The notes under the pieces are model-generated. The model was not told where the DNA came from. It was given only the letters and a program-made list of their open reading frames with translations, and made no database searches. A DNA stretch of 64,000 nucleotides, from the IMG/VR virus record IMGVR_UViG_3300027747_004779, positions 93,858-157,857 of that record. The stretch is one strand, 5' to 3'. This DNA is from a virus. Positions 8,544-55,560 of the stretch are shown one piece after another. The translations under genes and the position numbers were made by a program. Positions within the stretch are counted from its first letter, which is position 1, and every line of letters starts with the position of its first letter.

Positions 8544-9185
8544 TTAATTCTGCGCAAACTCGACAAACTTGTAAAACTCAGCTCGTGAATTATCATTATT
8601 ATCTAGAAACGCACCAGACATTCTGGCTGTACGCATCGTTGAATCATGTCTAATACCACGATTAGAACAGCAGGTATGATTGGCTTCAATCATTACAGCT
8701 ACCCCATTATTTTTTTCACATACTAGATCAATATGAGCATGAATTTGCATGGTAAGGTTTTCCTGTACCTGCGGACGGCGGGCAAACCAATCAACAATAC
8801 GATTGAGCTTGCTTAAACCAATAACCTTACCTTCCTTAGATGGTATATAAGCTACATGAGCTACACCAGTAAAAGGTGCATGATGATGTGAGCAAAGCGA
8901 AGTCAATTTAATATTATTTTGACAGACCATGCCATCATATTGATCGATATTATCAAAGGCTGTAATTTTCGGTGGTTTACTATAACAGCCCCATGCAAAG
9001 TCTTCTACAAAGGCCTTAGCCACGCGATGTGGGGTATTATCGCTGTTAGGATCATTTCTCCAATCATAACCTAATGCATCCATGTATGCTTCATAAGCTT
9101 TAGATGCTCTTTCAATTATTTGTTCTCTTTCTTCTTGAGTATGAGGATGATTATGATTAGCGAAAGCGAGTTTTACTTTAGACAT
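8544..9185 (-). CDS. folE: GTP cyclohydrolase I
   Basis: 213 residues, the usual FolE length. Zinc-site segments are intact: SLCSHHHAPFTGVAHVAYIP and HTCCSNRGIRHDSTMRT. The GLSKLNRIVDWFARRPQVQE signature is also present. FolE converts GTP to 7,8-dihydroneopterin triphosphate, the first step of 7-deazaguanine (and folate) synthesis. In this genome QueD (10752), QueE (13302), QueF (38940) and a DpdA-like enzyme (43472) make the deazaguanine route the likely purpose. Confidence 0.93.
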   Translation of the reverse strand: MSKVKLAFANHNHPHTQEEREQIIERASKAYEAYMDALGYDWRNDPNSDNTPHRVAKAFVEDFAWGCYSKPPKITAFDNIDQYDGMVCQNNIKLTSLCSHHHAPFTGVAHVAYIPSKEGKVIGLSKLNRIVDWFARRPQVQENLTMQIHAHIDLVCEKNNGVAVMIEANHTCCSNRGIRHDSTMRTARMSGAFLDNNDNSRAEFYKFVEFAQN

Positions 9186-10751: not shown

Positions 10752-11417
10752 ATGAAATACGAGAGTACAAAGATAATTGAATTAGGTAGCTGTGCATTTA
10801 GACAATGGAAAGCTGATAGTCATTGCAAATTTATACATGGATATAGATTAGTAGCTAAATTTTGGTTTGCATGCAATTATTTAGATGAAAAAAATTGGGT
10901 AGTAGATTTTGGTGGGTTAAAAGGTCTTAAGCAAGTTTTGGAGAAACAGTTTGATCATACATTATGTATTGCAGCAGATGACCCTTTACTTGAAGTGTTT
11001 AAACAGCTACATTCAACAGGAGGATGTGATTTGAGAGTTATGTCTAAAGGTGTTGGAATTGAAAGAACTGCGGAATGGTGTTTTGATGTAGCTGATGGGC
11101 ATGTAAGAGGTATTACAAATAATAGATGTTGGGTCGAAAAGGTAGAAGTATGGGAACATGATAAAAATTCTGCTATTGTTTCTTTTAGTACTACGGCTGA
11201 AGTTCACCAATCGATTGGTGAGACGGTTGCAACAACAATACAAGCACCAATAAATCAAGTTAGAGACTTTTTAGAGGATGTAGCAGAAGAGACAGGTGTT
11301 AATGTTTCTAATGTACTCAAGAATGCACCTCCAACAGAGTCTCAGGCTGCGCGTGTAGGCAATAAGATAACAACAGGTTATGCAAACTTATTTGGCGGTA
11401 CAAGCTGGGGTCAGTAA
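10752..11417 (+). CDS. queD: QueD-like 6-carboxy-5,6,7,8-tetrahydropterin synthase (divergent)
   Basis: 221 residues, longer than bacterial QueD (about 120). Family signatures are CKFIHGYRL (usual KC..LHGH), WVVDFGGLK, QFDHTLCI and VEKVEVWE. The catalytic Cys and one zinc His are kept, but the HGH motif reads HGY and the upstream AAH motif reads CAF, so two of three expected zinc ligands appear replaced. I recall HGY in cyanophage homologues, so this may be a phage subfamily. QueD turns the FolE product into 6-carboxytetrahydropterin. The C-terminal 60 residues are an extra low-motif tail. Confidence 0.75.
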   Translation: MKYESTKIIELGSCAFRQWKADSHCKFIHGYRLVAKFWFACNYLDEKNWVVDFGGLKGLKQVLEKQFDHTLCIAADDPLLEVFKQLHSTGGCDLRVMSKGVGIERTAEWCFDVADGHVRGITNNRCWVEKVEVWEHDKNSAIVSFSTTAEVHQSIGETVATTIQAPINQVRDFLEDVAEETGVNVSNVLKNAPPTESQAARVGNKITTGYANLFGGTSWGQ

Positions 11418-13301: not shown

Positions 13302-14039
13302 ATGAACGATAAGACTATTTTTTTGAGTGACGATAAACTCTTTTATACCCTCGAGGGTGAAGGTGAATATGTAGGATATCCTTCTGTGTTTATGCGTCTC
13401 TCTATGTGTAACTTGACATGTAAAGGCTTTGCATCTGCAGATTCGCCTAATGGTTGTGATAGCTTTATTAGCTGGTCGGTGAAAAATAGAATGACTTTTG
13501 ATCAAGTATTTGACTATATGACACAACGCGGTTATCAATGTCATTTAAAGGACGGTGCTATTTGGAAGATTACTGGCGGCGAGCCGCTTATTCAGCAGAA
13601 AGCTCTTCTTGAACTTGTGGATCAATATATTTTTAGATTTGGATATATACCTAAGATTGACTTTGAAACTAATGCAACAATATTACCTGATCAACAATGG
13701 AAAGACTGGGGTGCTACTTTTACTACATCACCTAAGCTTAGCAATAACGGCGACCCTGTTGAAAGGAGATATAAGCCCGAAGTTTTAAAATGGCATGCTC
13801 AAAACCGATCCGGATTTAAATTTGTAGTCAGTAGTGAGGATGAAGTAAAAGAAATTTTAGAAAAATATGTATATGAATGTAAAGTGCCAACAGATCGCAT
13901 TTGGCTTATGCCATGCTGTGGCAGTAGAGATGAACATACCGAAAAATGCCCGGGTGTCGCCGACTTATGTAAAAAACATAATCTTAAATTTAGTCCGAGA
14001 TTGCAGCTTGTAATTTGGAATAAAGCTCTTAAAGTATAA
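13302..14039 (+). CDS. queE: QueE-like 7-carboxy-7-deazaguanine synthase (radical SAM)
   Basis: 245 residues. N-terminal YTLEGEGEYVGYPSVFMRLS fits QueE, followed by MCNLTCKGF, WKITGGEPLIQ and FETNAT. The radical SAM motif is odd: C-x3-C is present but the third cysteine position of C-x3-C-x2-C is Phe, and the next Cys comes nine residues later (NGCDSF). Either the cluster uses that later Cys, as variant QueE proteins do with longer spacings, or activity is altered. QueE rearranges 6-carboxytetrahydropterin into 7-carboxy-7-deazaguanine. The next gene starts 1 base after the stop. Confidence 0.82.
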   Translation: MNDKTIFLSDDKLFYTLEGEGEYVGYPSVFMRLSMCNLTCKGFASADSPNGCDSFISWSVKNRMTFDQVFDYMTQRGYQCHLKDGAIWKITGGEPLIQQKALLELVDQYIFRFGYIPKIDFETNATILPDQQWKDWGATFTTSPKLSNNGDPVERRYKPEVLKWHAQNRSGFKFVVSSEDEVKEILEKYVYECKVPTDRIWLMPCCGSRDEHTEKCPGVADLCKKHNLKFSPRLQLVIWNKALKV

Positions 14040-14040
14040 C

Positions 14041-14781
14041 ATGAGAATTGCAATATCAGGCACAGCATGTCAGGGCAAGTCGACATTTATTAATGATTTT
14101 ATCAAATATTGGCCTGCATATAGTCGATCGCAGGAATCATACAGGAAAGTTCTTAAAGACGAAAAACTTAATATTAATAAAAAAGTTGATAAAGAGGGGC
14201 AATGGAAAATTTTAAATTGTTTAATTGATGATATTCAAAAAACAGAAAAAGGAGATAAGATTTTATTTGATAGATGTCCGCTAGATAACCTTGTATATTC
14301 ATTATGGAGTGAAGAAAAACAAACTTCAGATATTGATAAAAAATTTATTGATAAATGTATACCGCTTGTACAAGAGAGTATGCGTGCAATTGATATTATT
14401 CTTTTTATACCTATTACAAGAGCTGCACCGGTTAAGCTTGAAATAAAAGAGAATAGAGAGCTTGATAAGGAATTTATTGAAGAGATAGATAATATTTTTA
14501 AAGCCATAGCACGTAATTTAATGTCTAAAGGGGTCTGTCCATTTATGAAAGAAGATGATAGACCTCCTATGATAGAAGTCTTTGGTAACCCTGAACAACG
14601 CGTTGAAATGTGTAAACTTTATATTGATAATCAAGGAGATCTCATTGATGAAGGTAAAAGTATTCTTGATGCAGATAACTTAAGTAAGATGGAGCAACTT
14701 TTAAATATGCAGAAAGGCATTTTAAAAGATGAAAAATTAGAAGCAGCTATTGCAAATAGAATCATTACTGGCCATAAATAA
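14041..14781 (+). CDS. P-loop kinase (NadR/AAA_28-like)
   Basis: 246 residues. Walker A ISGTACQGKSTFINDF at the very N-terminus and LFDRCPLDNLVYSL, the D-R-x-x-x-D LID/substrate motif of nucleoside and deoxynucleotide kinases. Helical C-terminal half. Similar small kinases (one more at 39841) occur in deazaguanine- and nucleotide-related loci. The substrate is unknown; a modified nucleotide is possible. It immediately follows queE. Confidence 0.7.
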   Translation: MRIAISGTACQGKSTFINDFIKYWPAYSRSQESYRKVLKDEKLNINKKVDKEGQWKILNCLIDDIQKTEKGDKILFDRCPLDNLVYSLWSEEKQTSDIDKKFIDKCIPLVQESMRAIDIILFIPITRAAPVKLEIKENRELDKEFIEEIDNIFKAIARNLMSKGVCPFMKEDDRPPMIEVFGNPEQRVEMCKLYIDNQGDLIDEGKSILDADNLSKMEQLLNMQKGILKDEKLEAAIANRIITGHK

Positions 14782-38939: not shown

Positions 38940-39860
38940 TTATTGCCGTACAGTCTTCGGAAAATACTTAAACTTATCCCACATAGCATGATTCTGTTTT
39001 AATAGCTCTTGGCTATTAGCTCTAATAGGATTAATGTCAATACCGCCTCGTCTAACGTATAAGCACGATACCATCAGTTCTTCTGGTTTAACTAAATCAT
39101 ATAACCGTTTGTATATAGTCTCACAAATCTCTTCATGAAAATGACATTCATCTCTAAATGAGACAATGTACTGTAATAACGAGGTTTGATTAAGCTGATA
39201 AGGTCCTTTATAATGAATATAAACGTCCCCCCAATCCGGTTGAGATGTGACCCTGCAATTACTCTTTAAAAGAGCTGAATGAAAGCGTTGCACTTTATTA
39301 GAATCACCTTCTGTCCAACCAAGCAAAGAAGGATCTTCCTTATAGCCGCGGGATTTAATTGACGTAACGTCAATATTATTTTCCAATGTAGGGTAGTTAG
39401 CGCTAGAAAACAAAGGCGGATAATACATCGCGTCATCAATAGCTTTTGTTAGTTTAACACATACTCTAACTTCTGTTTCTAATAGTTTAGATAAATCATT
39501 CTCCATTACTGCCTCTAGCTGTTGCAATATGCTAATAATATTACCCTGATACGTCTCCATATTAAATGAATTCATATAGAGCTTAATAGACTTTGATTCA
39601 ACAATATATTTGTTAGTAGCCGGATATACAACCTTAGCAATAGCAGCAATTGGCATACCTTCATTGGTTAAACAAGATACTTCATACGCATTCCATACAT
39701 CGTAACCACAAAATGGGGGATTATCATCAGAGATATCTAAATGCTTTCTATTATTCTGTCTTGGCTCGCGAACTAAAAGTGAAGGGTCATAGGTGCATTT
39801 ATACCCTGTTATTTTACCAAGATGCTTTGATATATTACTATTATCTAATTCCGTATTCAT
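38940..39860 (-). CDS. queF: QueF, NADPH-dependent 7-cyano-7-deazaguanine reductase (long type)
   Basis: 306 residues (E. coli QueF 282). YIVESKSIKLYMNSFNM matches the E(S/T)KSxKLYLxSF motif, LKSNCRVTSQPDWGDVYIHY has the active-site Cys, CHFHEEICETIYKRL follows, and YVRRGGIDINPIRAN is the C-terminal signature of the long (tandem-T-fold) type. QueF reduces the nitrile of preQ0 to the aminomethyl of preQ1. It overlaps the kinase gene by 20 bases. In phages this indicates a preQ1-type DNA modification rather than preQ0. Confidence 0.95.
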   Translation of the reverse strand: MNTELDNSNISKHLGKITGYKCTYDPSLLVREPRQNNRKHLDISDDNPPFCGYDVWNAYEVSCLTNEGMPIAAIAKVVYPATNKYIVESKSIKLYMNSFNMETYQGNIISILQQLEAVMENDLSKLLETEVRVCVKLTKAIDDAMYYPPLFSSANYPTLENNIDVTSIKSRGYKEDPSLLGWTEGDSNKVQRFHSALLKSNCRVTSQPDWGDVYIHYKGPYQLNQTSLLQYIVSFRDECHFHEEICETIYKRLYDLVKPEELMVSCLYVRRGGIDINPIRANSQELLKQNHAMWDKFKYFPKTVRQ

Positions 39861-40419
39861 TAAGTTTTATTTTAATTGCTTCCATTCGTTCTTCAACTGT
39901 TCCTTTTAAAATAGTTACCTTACCTTTTAATCTTTCATCAGATAACCAAAAGTTCTCATACTTATCAATAATTGCATCTCTAAATTCTTTATTTGTACTT
40001 CTCTCACCATCGTCAACTAGCGGCACATCATGAGGACTCGGATAAAAGATATGATCATATTTGTGAATATAGTTTACATAGTACATTAATCCTAAACTAT
40101 TAGATACAGGAAAATCATTTAGCCTGTCTCTAGCAAAATAACTTGTATAAACCATCCCATCCATTAAGCAGCGATCATGCAATATACCTTGAAAATTAAA
40201 ACCTTTATAGTTGTAAAATAAGTTCTCAAACTCTTTATTGAGAATTAATGTCTGCGTCACATCATTTGCACCCTCTTCATTTATATCACAATTATGCCAA
40301 CGCTTAATTAGCCTAGTTACTTCATCAATATAGCAAAGCTTAGATCCATAATATTCTTTACACTTTTTTAAAAGAGTAGTCTTACCCGAACACTGAGGAC
40401 CTGTAAACGTAAATATCAT
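39841..40419 (-). CDS. P-loop kinase (AAA_28/NadR-like)
   Basis: 192 residues. FTGPQCSGKTTLLKKCKEYY (Walker A), LCYIDEVTRLI and LHDRCLMDGMVYTS, with an Asp-Arg-Cys segment like the kinase at 14041 (FDRCPLDN). Probably phosphorylates a nucleoside, nucleotide or base derivative. Sits between a small coiled-coil gene and queF in one overlapping minus-strand unit, which hints at a link with 7-deazaguanine metabolism. Confidence 0.7.
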   Translation of the reverse strand: MIFTFTGPQCSGKTTLLKKCKEYYGSKLCYIDEVTRLIKRWHNCDINEEGANDVTQTLILNKEFENLFYNYKGFNFQGILHDRCLMDGMVYTSYFARDRLNDFPVSNSLGLMYYVNYIHKYDHIFYPSPHDVPLVDDGERSTNKEFRDAIIDKYENFWLSDERLKGKVTILKGTVEERMEAIKIKLNEYGIR

Positions 40420-40547
40420 TCTTTATCTAATTCTATACCATATAACAAATTCTTCAAGATAATAATCTCTGCTTTTAATATTTTGTTTTCTTCTTTTAGA
40501 CGACGTATTTCATTGTTTTTTTGAGTAAAAATATGCACTAAAGACAT
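40416..40547 (-). CDS. Small coiled-coil protein (43 aa)
   Basis: ATG at 40545-40547; its TGA overlaps the kinase ATG (ATGA). The product starts MSLVHIFTQKNNEIRRLKEE and is almost one amphipathic helix with heptad-like Leu/Ile spacing. The tight overlap makes it likely to be expressed. Function unknown; may oligomerise or bind the kinase. Confidence 0.5.
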   Translation of the reverse strand: MSLVHIFTQKNNEIRRLKEENKILKAEIIILKNLLYGIELDKE

Positions 40548-40588
40548 ACTTTAGTATAGTTGTTCTTTGCTAAAAAGCAAAGCTAAAT

Positions 40589-40596
40589 ATTAAATA
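40589..40596 (+). promoter_or_regulatory. Late-type promoter ATTAAATA
   Basis: ATTAAATA, 8-base gap, ATG at 40605. Weaker than the consensus. Confidence 0.4.
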
Positions 40597-40604
40597 TTAA
40601 TATT

Positions 40605-41597
40605 ATGACTAATGATAATTCATTAATTTTTGAAGCCTATTCAAAAAATAAATCTAAGTCAAAAGTTAAATCTCTTCCTGCTCCCAGTAGCCCCGGTACA
40701 AAATCTCTTCCACCACCTAGAAAGCCTAAGCCAGGTACAAAATCTCTTCCACCACCTAGAAAGCCTAAGCCAGGTACAAAATCTCTTCCACCACCTAGAA
40801 AGCCTAATACTGAGACCGGGCCTGGGGTATCTAGGCAAAAATGCGCTAACAAAACAAAAGAAGAACTTTGCGATCTTAATTATGCACTAAAAAAGAAGAG
40901 CGAAGCTAATACTCCAGAAGCAAAAACATTTAAAGCATATTACAACAAATTTTTAAATACATGTGGTGATTTAGTGAGCAAATATGGTTGTAATAAAGAT
41001 GATGACGAGATTCCCGATAATGAGGCGCCAGATGATGACGAGATTCCCGATGATGAGACGCCAGATGATGACGAGATTCCTGATGACGAGATTCCTGATG
41101 ACGAGACGCCAGATGATGACGAGATTCCAGATTTCGAACCCGACCCTACTATTAATACCCCAATACCTTTAAAATTATGCGTTTCAAACGCAAAAGAAGA
41201 ATCAGCAAATGGTACTTATACCTTAAAATCAAAAGCTAACAGACCAATTTATATACATGATAATAAAGTAGCTACTATAGATGCAGATGTTTGGCCCGAA
41301 CCAAATTATTGGTATATACATGCCGTTGGCGGAGTTCCAGTTACATATGCTAAAGATGTATTTGACGTAGATTATAAAGGCCCGGAAGGACGATTTAAAG
41401 CTGCAGGTTATTCTCAAACCGACACTAATGTAACAGTTAAACGCGGTGAATGCGAGCAACAAAAACCAAAGCCGACACCGACACCTGAATCACCGGCGCC
41501 TAATACCCCTGCAGGTACTCAACCAACAGGAAATAAAAATAAAGATTTTGATTGGGATAAAATAGCTGACTGGATTATGAATGGAAGTAAAAAATAA
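40605..41597 (+). CDS. Repeat-rich putative packaged protein with capsid-targeting-like leader
   Basis: 330 residues. Leader MTNDNSLIFEAYSKNKSK with an I-F-E site. Then three 13-residue repeats of the form KSLPPPRKPKPGT (residues about 31-70), a Cys-containing helical region, acidic repeats DDDEIPDDE (about residues 132-178) and a C-terminal beta region (YTLKSKANRPIYIHDNKVAT). Ends with a Pro/Thr linker and FDWDKIADWIMNG. No enzyme motif. The opposite-charge repeats suggest scaffolding or binding. Confidence 0.65.
   Translation: MTNDNSLIFEAYSKNKSKSKVKSLPAPSSPGTKSLPPPRKPKPGTKSLPPPRKPKPGTKSLPPPRKPNTETGPGVSRQKCANKTKEELCDLNYALKKKSEANTPEAKTFKAYYNKFLNTCGDLVSKYGCNKDDDEIPDNEAPDDDEIPDDETPDDDEIPDDEIPDDETPDDDEIPDFEPDPTINTPIPLKLCVSNAKEESANGTYTLKSKANRPIYIHDNKVATIDADVWPEPNYWYIHAVGGVPVTYAKDVFDVDYKGPEGRFKAAGYSQTDTNVTVKRGECEQQKPKPTPTPESPAPNTPAGTQPTGNKNKDFDWDKIADWIMNGSKK
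40695..40807 (+). repeat. 39-bp tandem repeat (3 copies)
   Basis: Units starting GGTACAAAATCTCTTCCACC at 40695, 40734 and 40773; near-perfect, last one truncated. Encodes the Pro/Lys-rich stalk. Confidence 0.85.
40998..41130 (+). repeat. Acidic GATGATGACGAG-type repeats
   Basis: Imperfect units of GATGATGACGAGATTCC and GATGAGACGCCA giving D-D-D-E-I-P-D runs. Copy number could vary by slippage. Confidence 0.7.
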
Positions 41598-41600
41598 TTT

Positions 41601-41948
41601 TTATTTTCCCCATTTACCATTATATACTATTTCTGCAATAATGCCGTATACTGCGGAATCTCTAAATGCATCCATAACCGGCTCATTTGCAGAGCTCATT
41701 GCTTTCTTCTTTAAAACTAAATTAATTAAGCGCTGAATTTTATCATTAAGACGAACCACAATAGCGGATATAGCAGCAAATTTATCTTCTTGTTTTACTA
41801 AATCTGAGCCAAGAGAAATATTACCAGGACCGTAATCAAACTGTTTCTTACAAAATGTCTCATATAATTCTGTCTGTATTTTCTGAAACTCTTTACACGT
41901 TTCTGGAAAATTTTTTTCTACGTATTTAATGGCATCCTCTTTATTCAT
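41601..41948 (-). CDS. DUF1599/Nmad1-like protein
   Basis: 115 residues. YETFCKKQFDYGPGNISLGS, VVRLNDKIQRLINLVLKKK and EPVMDAFRDSAVYGIIAEIV are the pattern I recall for DUF1599, renamed nucleotide modification-associated domain 1. That family occurs in loci that alter DNA bases. Ends a minus-strand operon with DpdA-like, formyltransferase and IMPDH/GMP-reductase genes. Overlaps the upstream gene by 4 bases. Confidence 0.65.
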   Translation of the reverse strand: MNKEDAIKYVEKNFPETCKEFQKIQTELYETFCKKQFDYGPGNISLGSDLVKQEDKFAAISAIVVRLNDKIQRLINLVLKKKAMSSANEPVMDAFRDSAVYGIIAEIVYNGKWGK

Positions 41949-42904
41949 AATCTCACTCCGTAATTCACTTTATTTAAATTTAACGAACCGAGATTGCAAC
42001 CACCTGCATAACTAATCGCACTCTGTAAATCTTGTTTTATTTCTTCAAGCTTTTCAATATATGTAAAGGTATCAGTATCCATAAGCTTCATTGTACCTTC
42101 AATATTTTTCTTTTCGATTTTATTATGTACACTAGCAGATCCAAAATATTGCTTGAACCGTCTCCCGCTTGCATCTTTAACGAGAGGTGCAGGGCTATCT
42201 GAACATGCAGCAAATATAGAACCACACATCACCATATTAGCGCCGGCAACTAACGCCTTAGCAATATCACCATTACTACGCACACCGCCATCTGCAATAA
42301 TAGGAATATTTTTATCTTTAGCACACTCCATAACACAGCTAAACATCGGATAAGTAAATCCGGTTTTATCTTTTGTTGTACATGCATAGCCACCACCAAT
42401 ACCAACCTTTACAGCATCAGCTCCTGCATCGTGTAAATATTCTACTCCTTGAAACGAAGCAACATTACCGGCAATAATTTTAGTAGATGGTAACACTTGC
42501 TTAATATGTCTGATTTGCTCCGCTACTTTTAAATGATGACCATGCGCAACATCTATTGTAATAAAATCAACTTTCATCATGCTTTGCCCTATAGCTGTTA
42601 GTATGCTTTTATCTTTCTGCTGTATGCCAATGCTAATAGATATAACGTTAAATTTACGTAGATTTGCATATCGTACAAAGCTTTGTATATCATTATCAAA
42701 CCGGTGCATAACATAGAAATAACCGTGTTTATCCAAAAGCTCGCATGTGTTCTCATCGATACAGCACTTCATATTAGCCGGGAGAACAGGTAGTTTAAAA
42801 TCGTAACCGCAAAATAATACGTCTGTATCTATTTCTGCTCTAGACTTTACTGTATTAAAATTGGGTTTGAGAAAGACATTCTCATAATGTAAAGATATAT
42901 CCAT
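41945..42904 (-). CDS. IMP dehydrogenase/GMP reductase family
   Basis: 319 residues, TIM barrel. TIDVAHGHHLKVAEQI, AGNVASFQGVEYLHDAGADA, VKVGIGGGYACTTKDKTGF (catalytic Cys loop) and IPIIADGGVRSNGDIAKAL are diagnostic. The size, without a CBS insert, fits GMP reductase (GMP to IMP with NADPH) better than IMP dehydrogenase, but the loop is not decisive. Follows the formyltransferase by one base, so it is co-transcribed with the deazaguanine genes and may adjust guanine nucleotide pools. Confidence 0.88.
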   Translation of the reverse strand: MDISLHYENVFLKPNFNTVKSRAEIDTDVLFCGYDFKLPVLPANMKCCIDENTCELLDKHGYFYVMHRFDNDIQSFVRYANLRKFNVISISIGIQQKDKSILTAIGQSMMKVDFITIDVAHGHHLKVAEQIRHIKQVLPSTKIIAGNVASFQGVEYLHDAGADAVKVGIGGGYACTTKDKTGFTYPMFSCVMECAKDKNIPIIADGGVRSNGDIAKALVAGANMVMCGSIFAACSDSPAPLVKDASGRRFKQYFGSASVHNKIEKKNIEGTMKLMDTDTFTYIEKLEEIKQDLQSAISYAGGCNLGSLNLNKVNYGVRL

Positions 42905-42905
42905 T

Positions 42906-43475
42906 TTAACGTTCTAAAATTTTATATGCTGTAAAGAAGCTTTTCCAGAGGTCTAAAGCAGTATCTCTTAAAGCACCGTATACACCATCTAAATTCATAC
43001 CTTCAATCCCTACCCCCTGGCTCATTAATATCTCACCTTCATCTACACCTGGTGTAACTTTGTGAATCACACAGCCCGCTAATTTATATCCCTCTGTAAA
43101 CGCTCTTTCTTGTGGATTAAATCCTTTAAGTGAAGGAAACTTATCAATAAGTCCTGGATGTAAATTATATATTTCATAATGCTCACAAATCTCCTTAGGA
43201 ATAATTCTTAAATACCCATGAAGAGTAATTACTGGGTTATCAAAACACTTTAAGATTTTTAAATAATTACTTGCTACCGGTTTACTAGGTAAAGATATCA
43301 AAATAGTTTTATTAAGCTTATGCTCTCTAAACTGTGTTGTGTTCAATAACCCATTGTTAACGTTTTTAAAATCTGGCTTATTAGTTACAATTGCATCTGG
43401 GTATACACCTAGCGTATTTGATATATCATGTATCTCAGTACCGGTTTGAGAGAAAAATGTTATCCAAGGTCTCAT
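42906..43475 (-). CDS. Formyltransferase (PurN/GART-fold)
   Basis: 189 residues. VITLHGYLRIIPKEIC, YNLHPGLIDKFPSLKG (N-x-H-P-G, the catalytic Asn and His) and GCVIHKVTPGVDEGEILM (Asp). This triad is the 10-formyltetrahydrofolate transferase signature. Bacterial PurN formylates GAR, an amine on a purine precursor. Here the gene overlaps dpdA (ATGA) and is in an operon with other modification genes, so the acceptor may be the aminomethyl group of preQ1 in DNA or free. I recall a formylamino-methyl deazaguanine having been reported in phage DNA; not verified here. Confidence 0.8.
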   Translation of the reverse strand: MRPWITFFSQTGTEIHDISNTLGVYPDAIVTNKPDFKNVNNGLLNTTQFREHKLNKTILISLPSKPVASNYLKILKCFDNPVITLHGYLRIIPKEICEHYEIYNLHPGLIDKFPSLKGFNPQERAFTEGYKLAGCVIHKVTPGVDEGEILMSQGVGIEGMNLDGVYGALRDTALDLWKSFFTAYKILER

Positions 43476-44278
43476 CTACGAATAATCTTCTTAAACATTG
43501 TAGTATTATACTTTACTAGTTCAAGCTGATCATCTGTAAAATTGTGCGTAATAAGGTCAGCTAATTTTGTTGACGGTTTATTATCAAGCCCATAATCAGC
43601 ATCGTACTTTAATCCATGTATAGCAGCAACAACGGGATTGCTGGTATCGCAACTAACAATATTGTGAATATCTCTATCAACATAAAATCTAAACTCCTTA
43701 GCTAAAGAACAACCAAGCAAGTGATGGGGTTTGTTCCAATTCCATATCCCATTACTTATTAAATCGCTTATAAAGCGCTGACGACCAGTACACCATTTTT
43801 CAAGATGAGACTTACCTTCGCCGATAGCTTGATAATAGCTAAAATCAAAACTTATCGCGATCATATCAGCGTTATCTGACATAAATTTGTAACACTCTTT
43901 TAATTCATGCCAAGTTTTACCCTGCACAGCACCTATAGCTTTTGTTAAAAAGCTTTCCTTAATATTAAGTGTGTAATTTTCAAATGCTTTAAAGCTTTGT
44001 ATTGTACCTTGAGTATCTTCAAGTACATCCGGTACAATGAACATGTTGGGTTTAATTTCTTTAACCTTTACCCAGAACTCATGACTATCAAAAGCTTTGC
44101 CTAATTCAAAGATAGAATTGTCAAGCAATACTTCTCTATTGTAAGCAATTCTGGCAAATTTAAAAAAATCACTATATACAGGGTATTGATCTAAGAGATG
44201 TACTAAACAGTAATCAAAATCGTTATATTCTTTAGAGATATCAAGTATAGATATAGGCGATTCATGTGATACTTTCAT
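43472..44278 (-). CDS. dpdA: DpdA-like DNA deazaguanine transglycosylase
   Basis: 268 residues from the ATG at 44276-44278, 7 bases after AAGGA; a second ATG at 44284 sits too close to it. TGT-like TIM-barrel segments in order: REVLLDNSIFELGKAF, MFIVPDVLEDTQGTI (D-x-L-E-D), KAIGAVQGKTWHELKECY (G-x-V-Q-G of tRNA-guanine transglycosylases), IAISFDFSYY, HHLLGCSLAKEF, and VSCDTSNPVVAAIHG. TGT swaps guanine for a 7-deazaguanine base; phage DpdA acts on DNA. The QueF gene nearby suggests preQ1 as the base. It leads the modification operon ending at 41601. TGT zinc cysteines are absent, as in phage DpdA. Confidence 0.72.
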   Translation of the reverse strand: MKVSHESPISILDISKEYNDFDYCLVHLLDQYPVYSDFFKFARIAYNREVLLDNSIFELGKAFDSHEFWVKVKEIKPNMFIVPDVLEDTQGTIQSFKAFENYTLNIKESFLTKAIGAVQGKTWHELKECYKFMSDNADMIAISFDFSYYQAIGEGKSHLEKWCTGRQRFISDLISNGIWNWNKPHHLLGCSLAKEFRFYVDRDIHNIVSCDTSNPVVAAIHGLKYDADYGLDNKPSTKLADLITHNFTDDQLELVKYNTTMFKKIIRR

Positions 44279-44320
44279 TAGCATATCCTTATTATAAATG
44301 TAAATAATAGATAGATCAAC

Positions 44321-55071: not shown

Positions 55072-55530
55072 TTAATCTAGTCTAACGGATTCCCAAGGAA
55101 AGTCAAGCCATATATTGTCGTCAAATTCTTTAATATAGAAATTAGGAATAAATTGTGTCGACTTTTTAATATAAAGAGTTGCAAATTTAAAGTTTGTAAA
55201 CTCACATGATTCAAAATAATCCTTTGCAGCTAGAAGTGTTTTACCTTTATCAGAAAGGTCGTCAACAATAACTACCCTCTTTTCTCTAAATTCTGAATTA
55301 AATTTAAACCCTGGTATCTGACCAAATTCTAACTCCCCTGCTGTAAATTCACTATAAGATTTAATAGCAAAATTAACAACCGGTATATCATATATGTAAG
55401 AAATAATAGTACCGGGAACTAGGCCGCCGCGACCAATAGCAGCTATAGCATCACACGGTCCAATTAAATTTGCTAATTCTTTGCAGTCTTTATTAACCTG
55501 CTCCCAGGTTAAATTAATACGTTCAGGCAT
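55072..55530 (-). CDS. Purine phosphoribosyltransferase (PRPP-dependent)
   Basis: 152 residues from the ATG at 55528-55530 (a TTG one codon earlier is not needed). AIAAIGRGGLVPGTIISYIY and the PRPP loop RVVIVDDLSDKGKTL give the type I PRT fold. Short size and a final WLDFPWES fit the hypoxanthine/xanthine-guanine salvage group (gpt-like). It could recycle guanine or, speculatively, a deazaguanine base. Minus strand, ending before a hairpin. Confidence 0.8.
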   Translation of the reverse strand: MPERINLTWEQVNKDCKELANLIGPCDAIAAIGRGGLVPGTIISYIYDIPVVNFAIKSYSEFTAGELEFGQIPGFKFNSEFREKRVVIVDDLSDKGKTLLAAKDYFESCEFTNFKFATLYIKKSTQFIPNFYIKEFDDNIWLDFPWESVRLD

Positions 55531-55560
55531 CAATATATTATATTTTAAAATCTAAAATAA

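Follow-up and report, generated by a model that had tools for sequence, protein, structure and literature searches.

An uncultivated phage known from a 157,857-base IMG/VR virus record (IMGVR_UViG_3300027747_004779) probably modifies its DNA in the manner of the DpdA/DpdN pathway, in which the amine preQ1 is inserted by the transglycosylase DpdA and then N-formylated, the predicted product being 2′-deoxy-7-(formylamino)methyl-7-deazaguanine (fdPreQ1). This base is said to have been described in phage DNA by Cui et al. in 2023, reportedly together with a DpdA3 subfamily, complete replacement of guanine, and a predicted preQ1 formyltransferase named DpdN. Good confidence in the same reading for the phage considered here comes from its gene set, the folds and catalytic residues of the encoded proteins, and the linkage of their genes across relatives. 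The window analyzed is a stretch of 64,000 nucleotides covering bases 93858-157857 of the record, and positions below are those of the window unless the contig is named. Judged from its T4 gp23-like major capsid protein (about 32% identity versus cyanophage homologs), the phage is a T4-like myovirus.

In the proposed scheme, GTP would be converted to preQ0 by FolE, QueD, QueE, and QueC, and QueF would reduce the nitrile of preQ0 to the primary amine of preQ1. DpdA would exchange guanine in the phage DNA for preQ1, and the formyltransferase would transfer a formyl group from 10-formyltetrahydrofolate to the aminomethyl nitrogen. With the finished base in place, the N7 positions of guanine would be masked from the restriction enzymes of the host. 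From the genes we infer the order of substrates, the product, the extent of replacement, and the protection; if replacement were complete, 56,317 guanines would be freed per genome copy, which is the number of G+C pairs in the contig. Phage 7-deazaguanines are known to guard DNA against restriction enzymes, and in phage CAjan their presence requires dpdA (PMC6884629). Palindrome avoidance is not seen in the contig, where observed/expected ratios are 1.01 for 4-mers and 1.03 for 6-mers in a comparison made without a control set; this is compatible with protected DNA and is given little weight.

Genes for the Synthesis of preQ1

The series FolE-QueD-QueE-QueC-QueF-DpdA is complete on one contig. 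FolE, GTP cyclohydrolase I (8544-9185, minus strand; PF01227, E 6e-48), QueD, 6-carboxytetrahydropterin synthase (10752-11417, plus strand; PF01242, E 4e-16, and alignment), and QueE, 7-carboxy-7-deazaguanine synthase (13302-14039, plus strand; TIGR03963/TIGR04322, E about 1e-10, under the cut-offs, and alignment), lie inside the window at a distance of 25-30 kb from the blocks that contain DpdA and QueF. A sequence-only reading of the window had named these genes, QueF, dpdA, and the formyltransferase correctly and had assigned the pathway to positions 38940-44278; that interval does hold the genes from QueF to DpdA, but FolE, QueD, and QueE fall outside it. The same reading had not seen QueC and had proposed a search of the rest of the genome, which places the gene at contig positions 84716-85465 (minus strand), 8.4 kb upstream of the start of the window, so that no step to preQ1 is missing. 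QueC was also found in all 10 of the long relatives searched, Campylobacter phages included, and in Flavobacterium phage vB_FspM_immuto_2-6A (NC_055915; hereafter immuto), which was cultured on Flavobacterium sp. LMO8.

The two-domain NADPH-dependent nitrile reductase QueF (38940-39860, minus strand; preQ0 to preQ1) has both the QueF_N domain (PF14819, E 2e-33) and the QueF domain (PF14489, E 4e-23), and it keeps the NADPH motif ESKSIKLY as well as residues C202, D209, H242, and E243, found in the segments SNC, QPDWG, and FHEE. Its score of 264.5 bits against TIGR03138 does not pass the cut-off of 293.45, which is a naming threshold and not a mechanistic feature.

Some variation accompanies these enzymes. 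QueD carries HGY instead of the zinc motif HGH, as do the QueD proteins of immuto-type phages and of relative L222. The cysteine spacing of QueE is CX3CX11C where CX3CX2C is usual, and a far longer insert occurs at the same place in L222. In one subgroup of relatives (L100, L104, L106, L110, and others), QueF is strongly diverged (about 215 bits versus 430-600) with its catalytic residues intact, and the formyltransferase has diverged alongside it.

A Putative Transglycosylase for Base Exchange in DNA

The putative DNA-guanine transglycosylase DpdA (43472-44284, minus strand) is 45% identical to an immuto protein annotated as DNA guanine transglycosylase and 44% identical to hypothetical protein gp056 of Campylobacter Firehammervirus CP220, a group that may correspond to subfamily DpdA3. 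An in-frame ATG at 44278 is an alternative start that fits the start MKVSHE of several relatives. No family match to DpdA was obtained in Pfam or NCBIfam, and a sequence-profile search of the PDB returned chance matches (E about 0.04) and no tRNA-guanine transglycosylase (TGT); structure prediction was therefore used. The AlphaFold2 model, built with 19 aligned sequences, has a mean predicted local distance difference test (pLDDT) score of 92 and a predicted template modeling score of 0.89, and the best 50 Foldseek matches in the PDB are all TGT structures (E about 1e-9), several with preQ1 or preQ0 bound. On the evidence of this model, DpdA has the TGT fold.

Residues D55, D86, Q121-G122, and D213 are invariant in the alignment of relatives, and the motifs LDNS, PDxLE, IGxxQG, HHLLGC, and S-x-DTSNP follow the order of the TGT active-site motifs. 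D55, D86, and D213 lie at motif positions resembling those of TGT, and the three residues may correspond to its catalytic aspartates. The base-exchange chemistry of DpdA would be that of Tgt, from which it differs in having only 12-14% identity, a length of about 270 residues, no CxCxxC zinc site, and a presumed DNA substrate. A weak resemblance to DpdA (E 1e-6) is also seen in a hypothetical protein encoded after QueE in Brevundimonas phage StAshley (L060:6975-7775), which is likely an unannotated transglycosylase.

Since the enzymes that make preQ1 also precede queuosine in bacteria, their product might be intended for the queuosine of host tRNA and for the tuning of translation rather than for DNA. 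Scarcely any credence can be given to this explanation: the transglycosylase that accompanies the pathway is a TGT-fold enzyme distinct from Tgt and unmatched in the sequence searches described above, the genes share an operon with it, and formylation would block the synthesis of queuosine.

The Formyltransferase and Its Linkage to QueF

The DpdN-like formyltransferase (42906-43475, minus strand; PF00551, E 1e-15) has the fold of PurN, the glycinamide ribonucleotide (GAR) transformylase, and is 45% identical to its immuto homolog. Its structural model (pLDDT 91) finds PurN as the best match in the PDB. The Asn-His-Asp triad that the sequence-only reading had pointed out is borne out by alignment with Escherichia coli PurN from MG1655, in which N104, H106, and D145 correspond to N106, H108, and D144. 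The phosphate of GAR is bound in PurN by a Gly-Ser-Asn loop. The Asn of this loop, Asn13, is replaced by Glu14 in the phage enzyme, giving a Gly-Thr/Ser-Glu loop whose Glu is invariant in all aligned relatives, and a negative side chain at this place argues against a phosphorylated substrate such as GAR. The enzyme further differs from PurN in three extra residues (SLK) that follow HPGLIxxFP and in a shorter C terminus. The Formyl_trans_N fold, the triad, and the co-occurrence with DpdA and QueF are the features by which DpdN is recognized in sequence; all of them are seen here, and the enzyme is predicted to act as DpdN on preQ1 or dPreQ1.

The genes around the formyltransferase form two minus-strand blocks, dpdA-formyltransferase-GMP reductase-DUF1599-like and kinase-queF, six genes in all. 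The first block had been described from its sequence as overlapping gene by gene. Overlaps of 4 nucleotides do join dpdA to the formyltransferase and the GMP reductase to the DUF1599-like gene, but the formyltransferase and the GMP reductase are 1 nucleotide apart; kinase and queF overlap by 20 nucleotides. A promoter scan gave no excess over shuffled sequences. The same gene order is seen on dozens of separate contigs, a recurrence far beyond chance.

Relatives were gathered from IMG/VR scans queried with the formyltransferase, DpdA, and the kinase, and removal of duplicate DpdA proteins and of contigs that were too short left 70 DpdA neighborhoods, which were picked by similarity, are in many cases closely related, and may amount to five or six independent lineages. 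The formyltransferase is present in 59 of them, and QueF and the kinase accompany it in every one (59/59). DpdA, kinase, and QueF occur without a formyltransferase in 8 of the 70, a type that includes contigs L134, L135, L137, L139, and L142-L144; these lineages presumably stop at dPreQ1 or make another tailored form. In CP220, only DpdA and the kinase are found in the neighborhood, with no formyltransferase and with no QueF match in the genome. The invariable company of QueF and the CP220 pattern together indicate that the formyltransferase is confined to settings in which an amine can be formed. In relative L039, the formyltransferase has lost its catalytic Asp, and dpdA is broken too. Among viruses with QueF-type genes, dPreQ1 has been found as the main modified base in two (PMC6884629).

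These observations bear on the proposal that preQ1 and DpdA are used as described while the formyltransferase is an auxiliary PurN of purine biosynthesis, placed in the operon by chance. PurN is indeed its best match in Pfam, NCBIfam, and the PDB, and cyanophage PurN proteins have a PHROG of their own. The score of 53 bits against TIGR00639, for which the cut-off is 150, and the exchange of the phosphate-binding Asn for an invariant Glu both speak against membership in PurN, as do the unbroken association with QueF and the absence of the enzyme from CP220, so that a purine-biosynthetic role appears very unlikely.

If the formyltransferase acts in the DpdN pathway, two sequences of events can be imagined. 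Formylation after insertion into DNA is slightly favored over formylation of the free base; insertion first is the simpler course because the same DpdA family is found in lineages without a formyltransferase and in CP220, which has no QueF.

Considerations against an fdPreQ1 Product

Several points weigh against the fdPreQ1 reading. QueF, FolE, QueD, and QueE each score under the NCBIfam cut-offs. The scheme leaves the DUF1599-like protein and the kinase unexplained, so modification could continue beyond fdPreQ1. Finally, QueF and QueF-L, the maker of archaeosine, are hard to separate by sequence in phages (PMC6884629). It might be argued from this that QueF is a QueF-L-type amidotransferase leading to archaeosine (dG+) and that the formyltransferase acts elsewhere. 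The phage protein is of the bacterial two-domain type with an NADPH-binding motif, and the formyltransferase, which requires an amine, always accompanies QueF; archaeosine as the product is therefore rated as highly improbable.

With these points considered, the combination of preQ1 synthesis, DpdA, and a formyltransferase first proposed from the sequence holds up well, given the complete pathway, the fold of DpdA, the catalytic residues of QueF and the formyltransferase, the loss of the phosphate-loop Asn, and the linkage of formyltransferase to QueF, with fdPreQ1 as the expected end product.

Relation to Known Systems

The reported fdPreQ1/DpdN pathway resembles the one considered here in that preQ1 would be inserted by DpdA and then formylated to the same predicted base. 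It differs in that the DUF1599-like protein, the GMP reductase, and the kinase are extra conserved neighbors in the present phage, whose pathway is predicted from its genes. Among cultured phages, the closest one to share the set is immuto, which encodes FolE, QueD, QueE, QueC, DpdA, the formyltransferase, the P-loop kinase, and QueF, the latter part in the order dpdA-(orf)-formyltransferase-kinase-queF. It differs in the moderate identity of its DpdA and formyltransferase (45% in each case), in having no GMP reductase or DUF1599 gene adjoining them, and in a PRA-PH/MazG-type pyrophosphohydrolase encoded between FolE and DpdA.

CP220 offers a different arrangement. Its product is said to be the amide dADG and not a preQ1 derivative. 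DpdA is followed there by a kinase of the same family, and a weakly similar phosphoribosyltransferase is present, but QueF and the formyltransferase are not matched. The occurrence of dADG in the Campylobacter Firehammervirus group is cited in PMC6884629.

The chemistry is already known elsewhere; what the present phage and its relatives add is the completed pathway, the phosphate-loop change relative to PurN, the linkage of the formyltransferase to QueF without exception, and the kinase, DUF1599-like, and phosphoribosyltransferase partners. Far from being a curiosity of one Flavobacterium phage, the genes for presumed preQ1 formylation form a closely conserved block that is widespread among T4-like phages from many metagenomes, and dozens of homologs are now on hand with which the predicted preQ1 formyltransferase can be tested. 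Questions are also raised about the role of the DpdA-linked kinase, about the association and fusion of DUF1599 with the formyltransferase, and about whether phages recycle the guanine freed by base exchange.

Partner Genes

The AAA_28/NadR-like P-loop kinase (39841-40419, minus strand; PF13521, E 2e-12) has P-loop, DRC, and DDGxRS motifs and is a neighbor of DpdA in 69 of the 70 neighborhoods. A search of 50,697 phage records at E up to 1e-5 found relatives of the kinase in no phages other than Campylobacter and Flavobacterium phages of the DpdA kind. That the kinase is exclusive to such phages fails in one instance, Campylobacter phage CC_R7 (L227), which has the kinase, QueC, and QueE with no DpdA match. 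The presence of the kinase in CP220 without QueF indicates that it goes with DpdA and not with preQ1. To call it a nucleoside kinase would be a guess.

The small DUF1599/Nmad1-like protein (41601-41948, minus strand; phrog_1485, E 3e-12) adjoins the formyltransferase in 53 of 59 neighborhoods, and in relative L145 (2331-3242) the formyltransferase and a DUF1599-like domain are fused in a single open reading frame of 303 residues. It had earlier been named DUF1599, a label that agrees with tblastn matches to phage proteins annotated in this way but not with Pfam, where the window protein is unmatched and only 5 of 11 relatives match PF07659 (DUF1599/Nmad1), at best with E 0.012; membership in DUF1599 is thus weakly indicated. 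Its identification as a MazG/PRA-PH pyrophosphohydrolase was tried and rejected (hhalign probability 0.9%, no PRA-PH match in its own genome, and no PDB match).

A role for the DUF1599-like protein, the kinase, or both in turning the formamide into an undescribed base beyond fdPreQ1 would account for the close association and fusion just described, for the near-constant presence of the kinase, and for the Pfam name of PF07659, “Nucleotide modification associated domain 1.” Against such a step, no DUF1599 adjoins the formyltransferase of immuto-type phages or of L222, and the kinase, which stands beside DpdA in CP220 without QueF or a formyltransferase, is not specific to fdPreQ1. Moreover, DUF1599-like genes lie in ordinary nucleotide-metabolism operons in the crAss-like phage cr108_1. 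A further base is accordingly considered improbable, and fdPreQ1 is preferred as the final product.

The protein encoded at 41945-42904 (minus strand), which had been left as either IMP dehydrogenase or GMP reductase, is a GMP reductase of the Bacillus GuaC type, with 335 bits against NF003966 (cut-off 344) and a match to PDB 1ypf at E 9e-75, and it keeps the catalytic Cys (CTT) and the Glu of the NIEG loop; identity as IMP dehydrogenase was rejected on the same matches. The gene is optional: 28 of the 59 formyltransferase neighborhoods have it at a distance of no more than 6.5 kb, some have it elsewhere, and in others it was not seen. As a side hypothesis, it may trim the guanine pool.

A Gpt-type guanine/xanthine phosphoribosyltransferase (55072-55533, minus strand; PF00156, E 2e-16; NF006613, E 8e-21; PDB 1vdm, E 5e-18) might return the guanine released by DpdA to GMP. 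It is present in all eight long IMG/VR relatives tested, a weakly similar one is found in Campylobacter phages, and a relative stands beside FolE in immuto and in StAshley, which has QueC, QueD, and QueE. Its value as a marker of 7-deazaguanine phages is weakened by Cellulophaga phage phiST, which has one with no QueC or QueF match. A guanine-replacement machine larger than any yet described can be conceived in which DpdA has as partners a dedicated NadR-like kinase and the phosphoribosyltransferase, the latter recycling the released guanine to GTP for more preQ1, and in which the formyltransferase acts in a complex with DUF1599 that possibly converts the formylated base to an undescribed one; this is a speculative and doubtful arrangement.

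Two other genes stand near those of the pathway. A second AAA_28 P-loop kinase is encoded directly after QueE (14041-14781, plus strand; PF13521, E 2e-8). Between the two minus-strand blocks lies a plus-strand gene (40605-41597) whose protein contains tandem repeats, some proline-rich (KPGTKSLPPPR) and others acidic (DDDEIPDDE).

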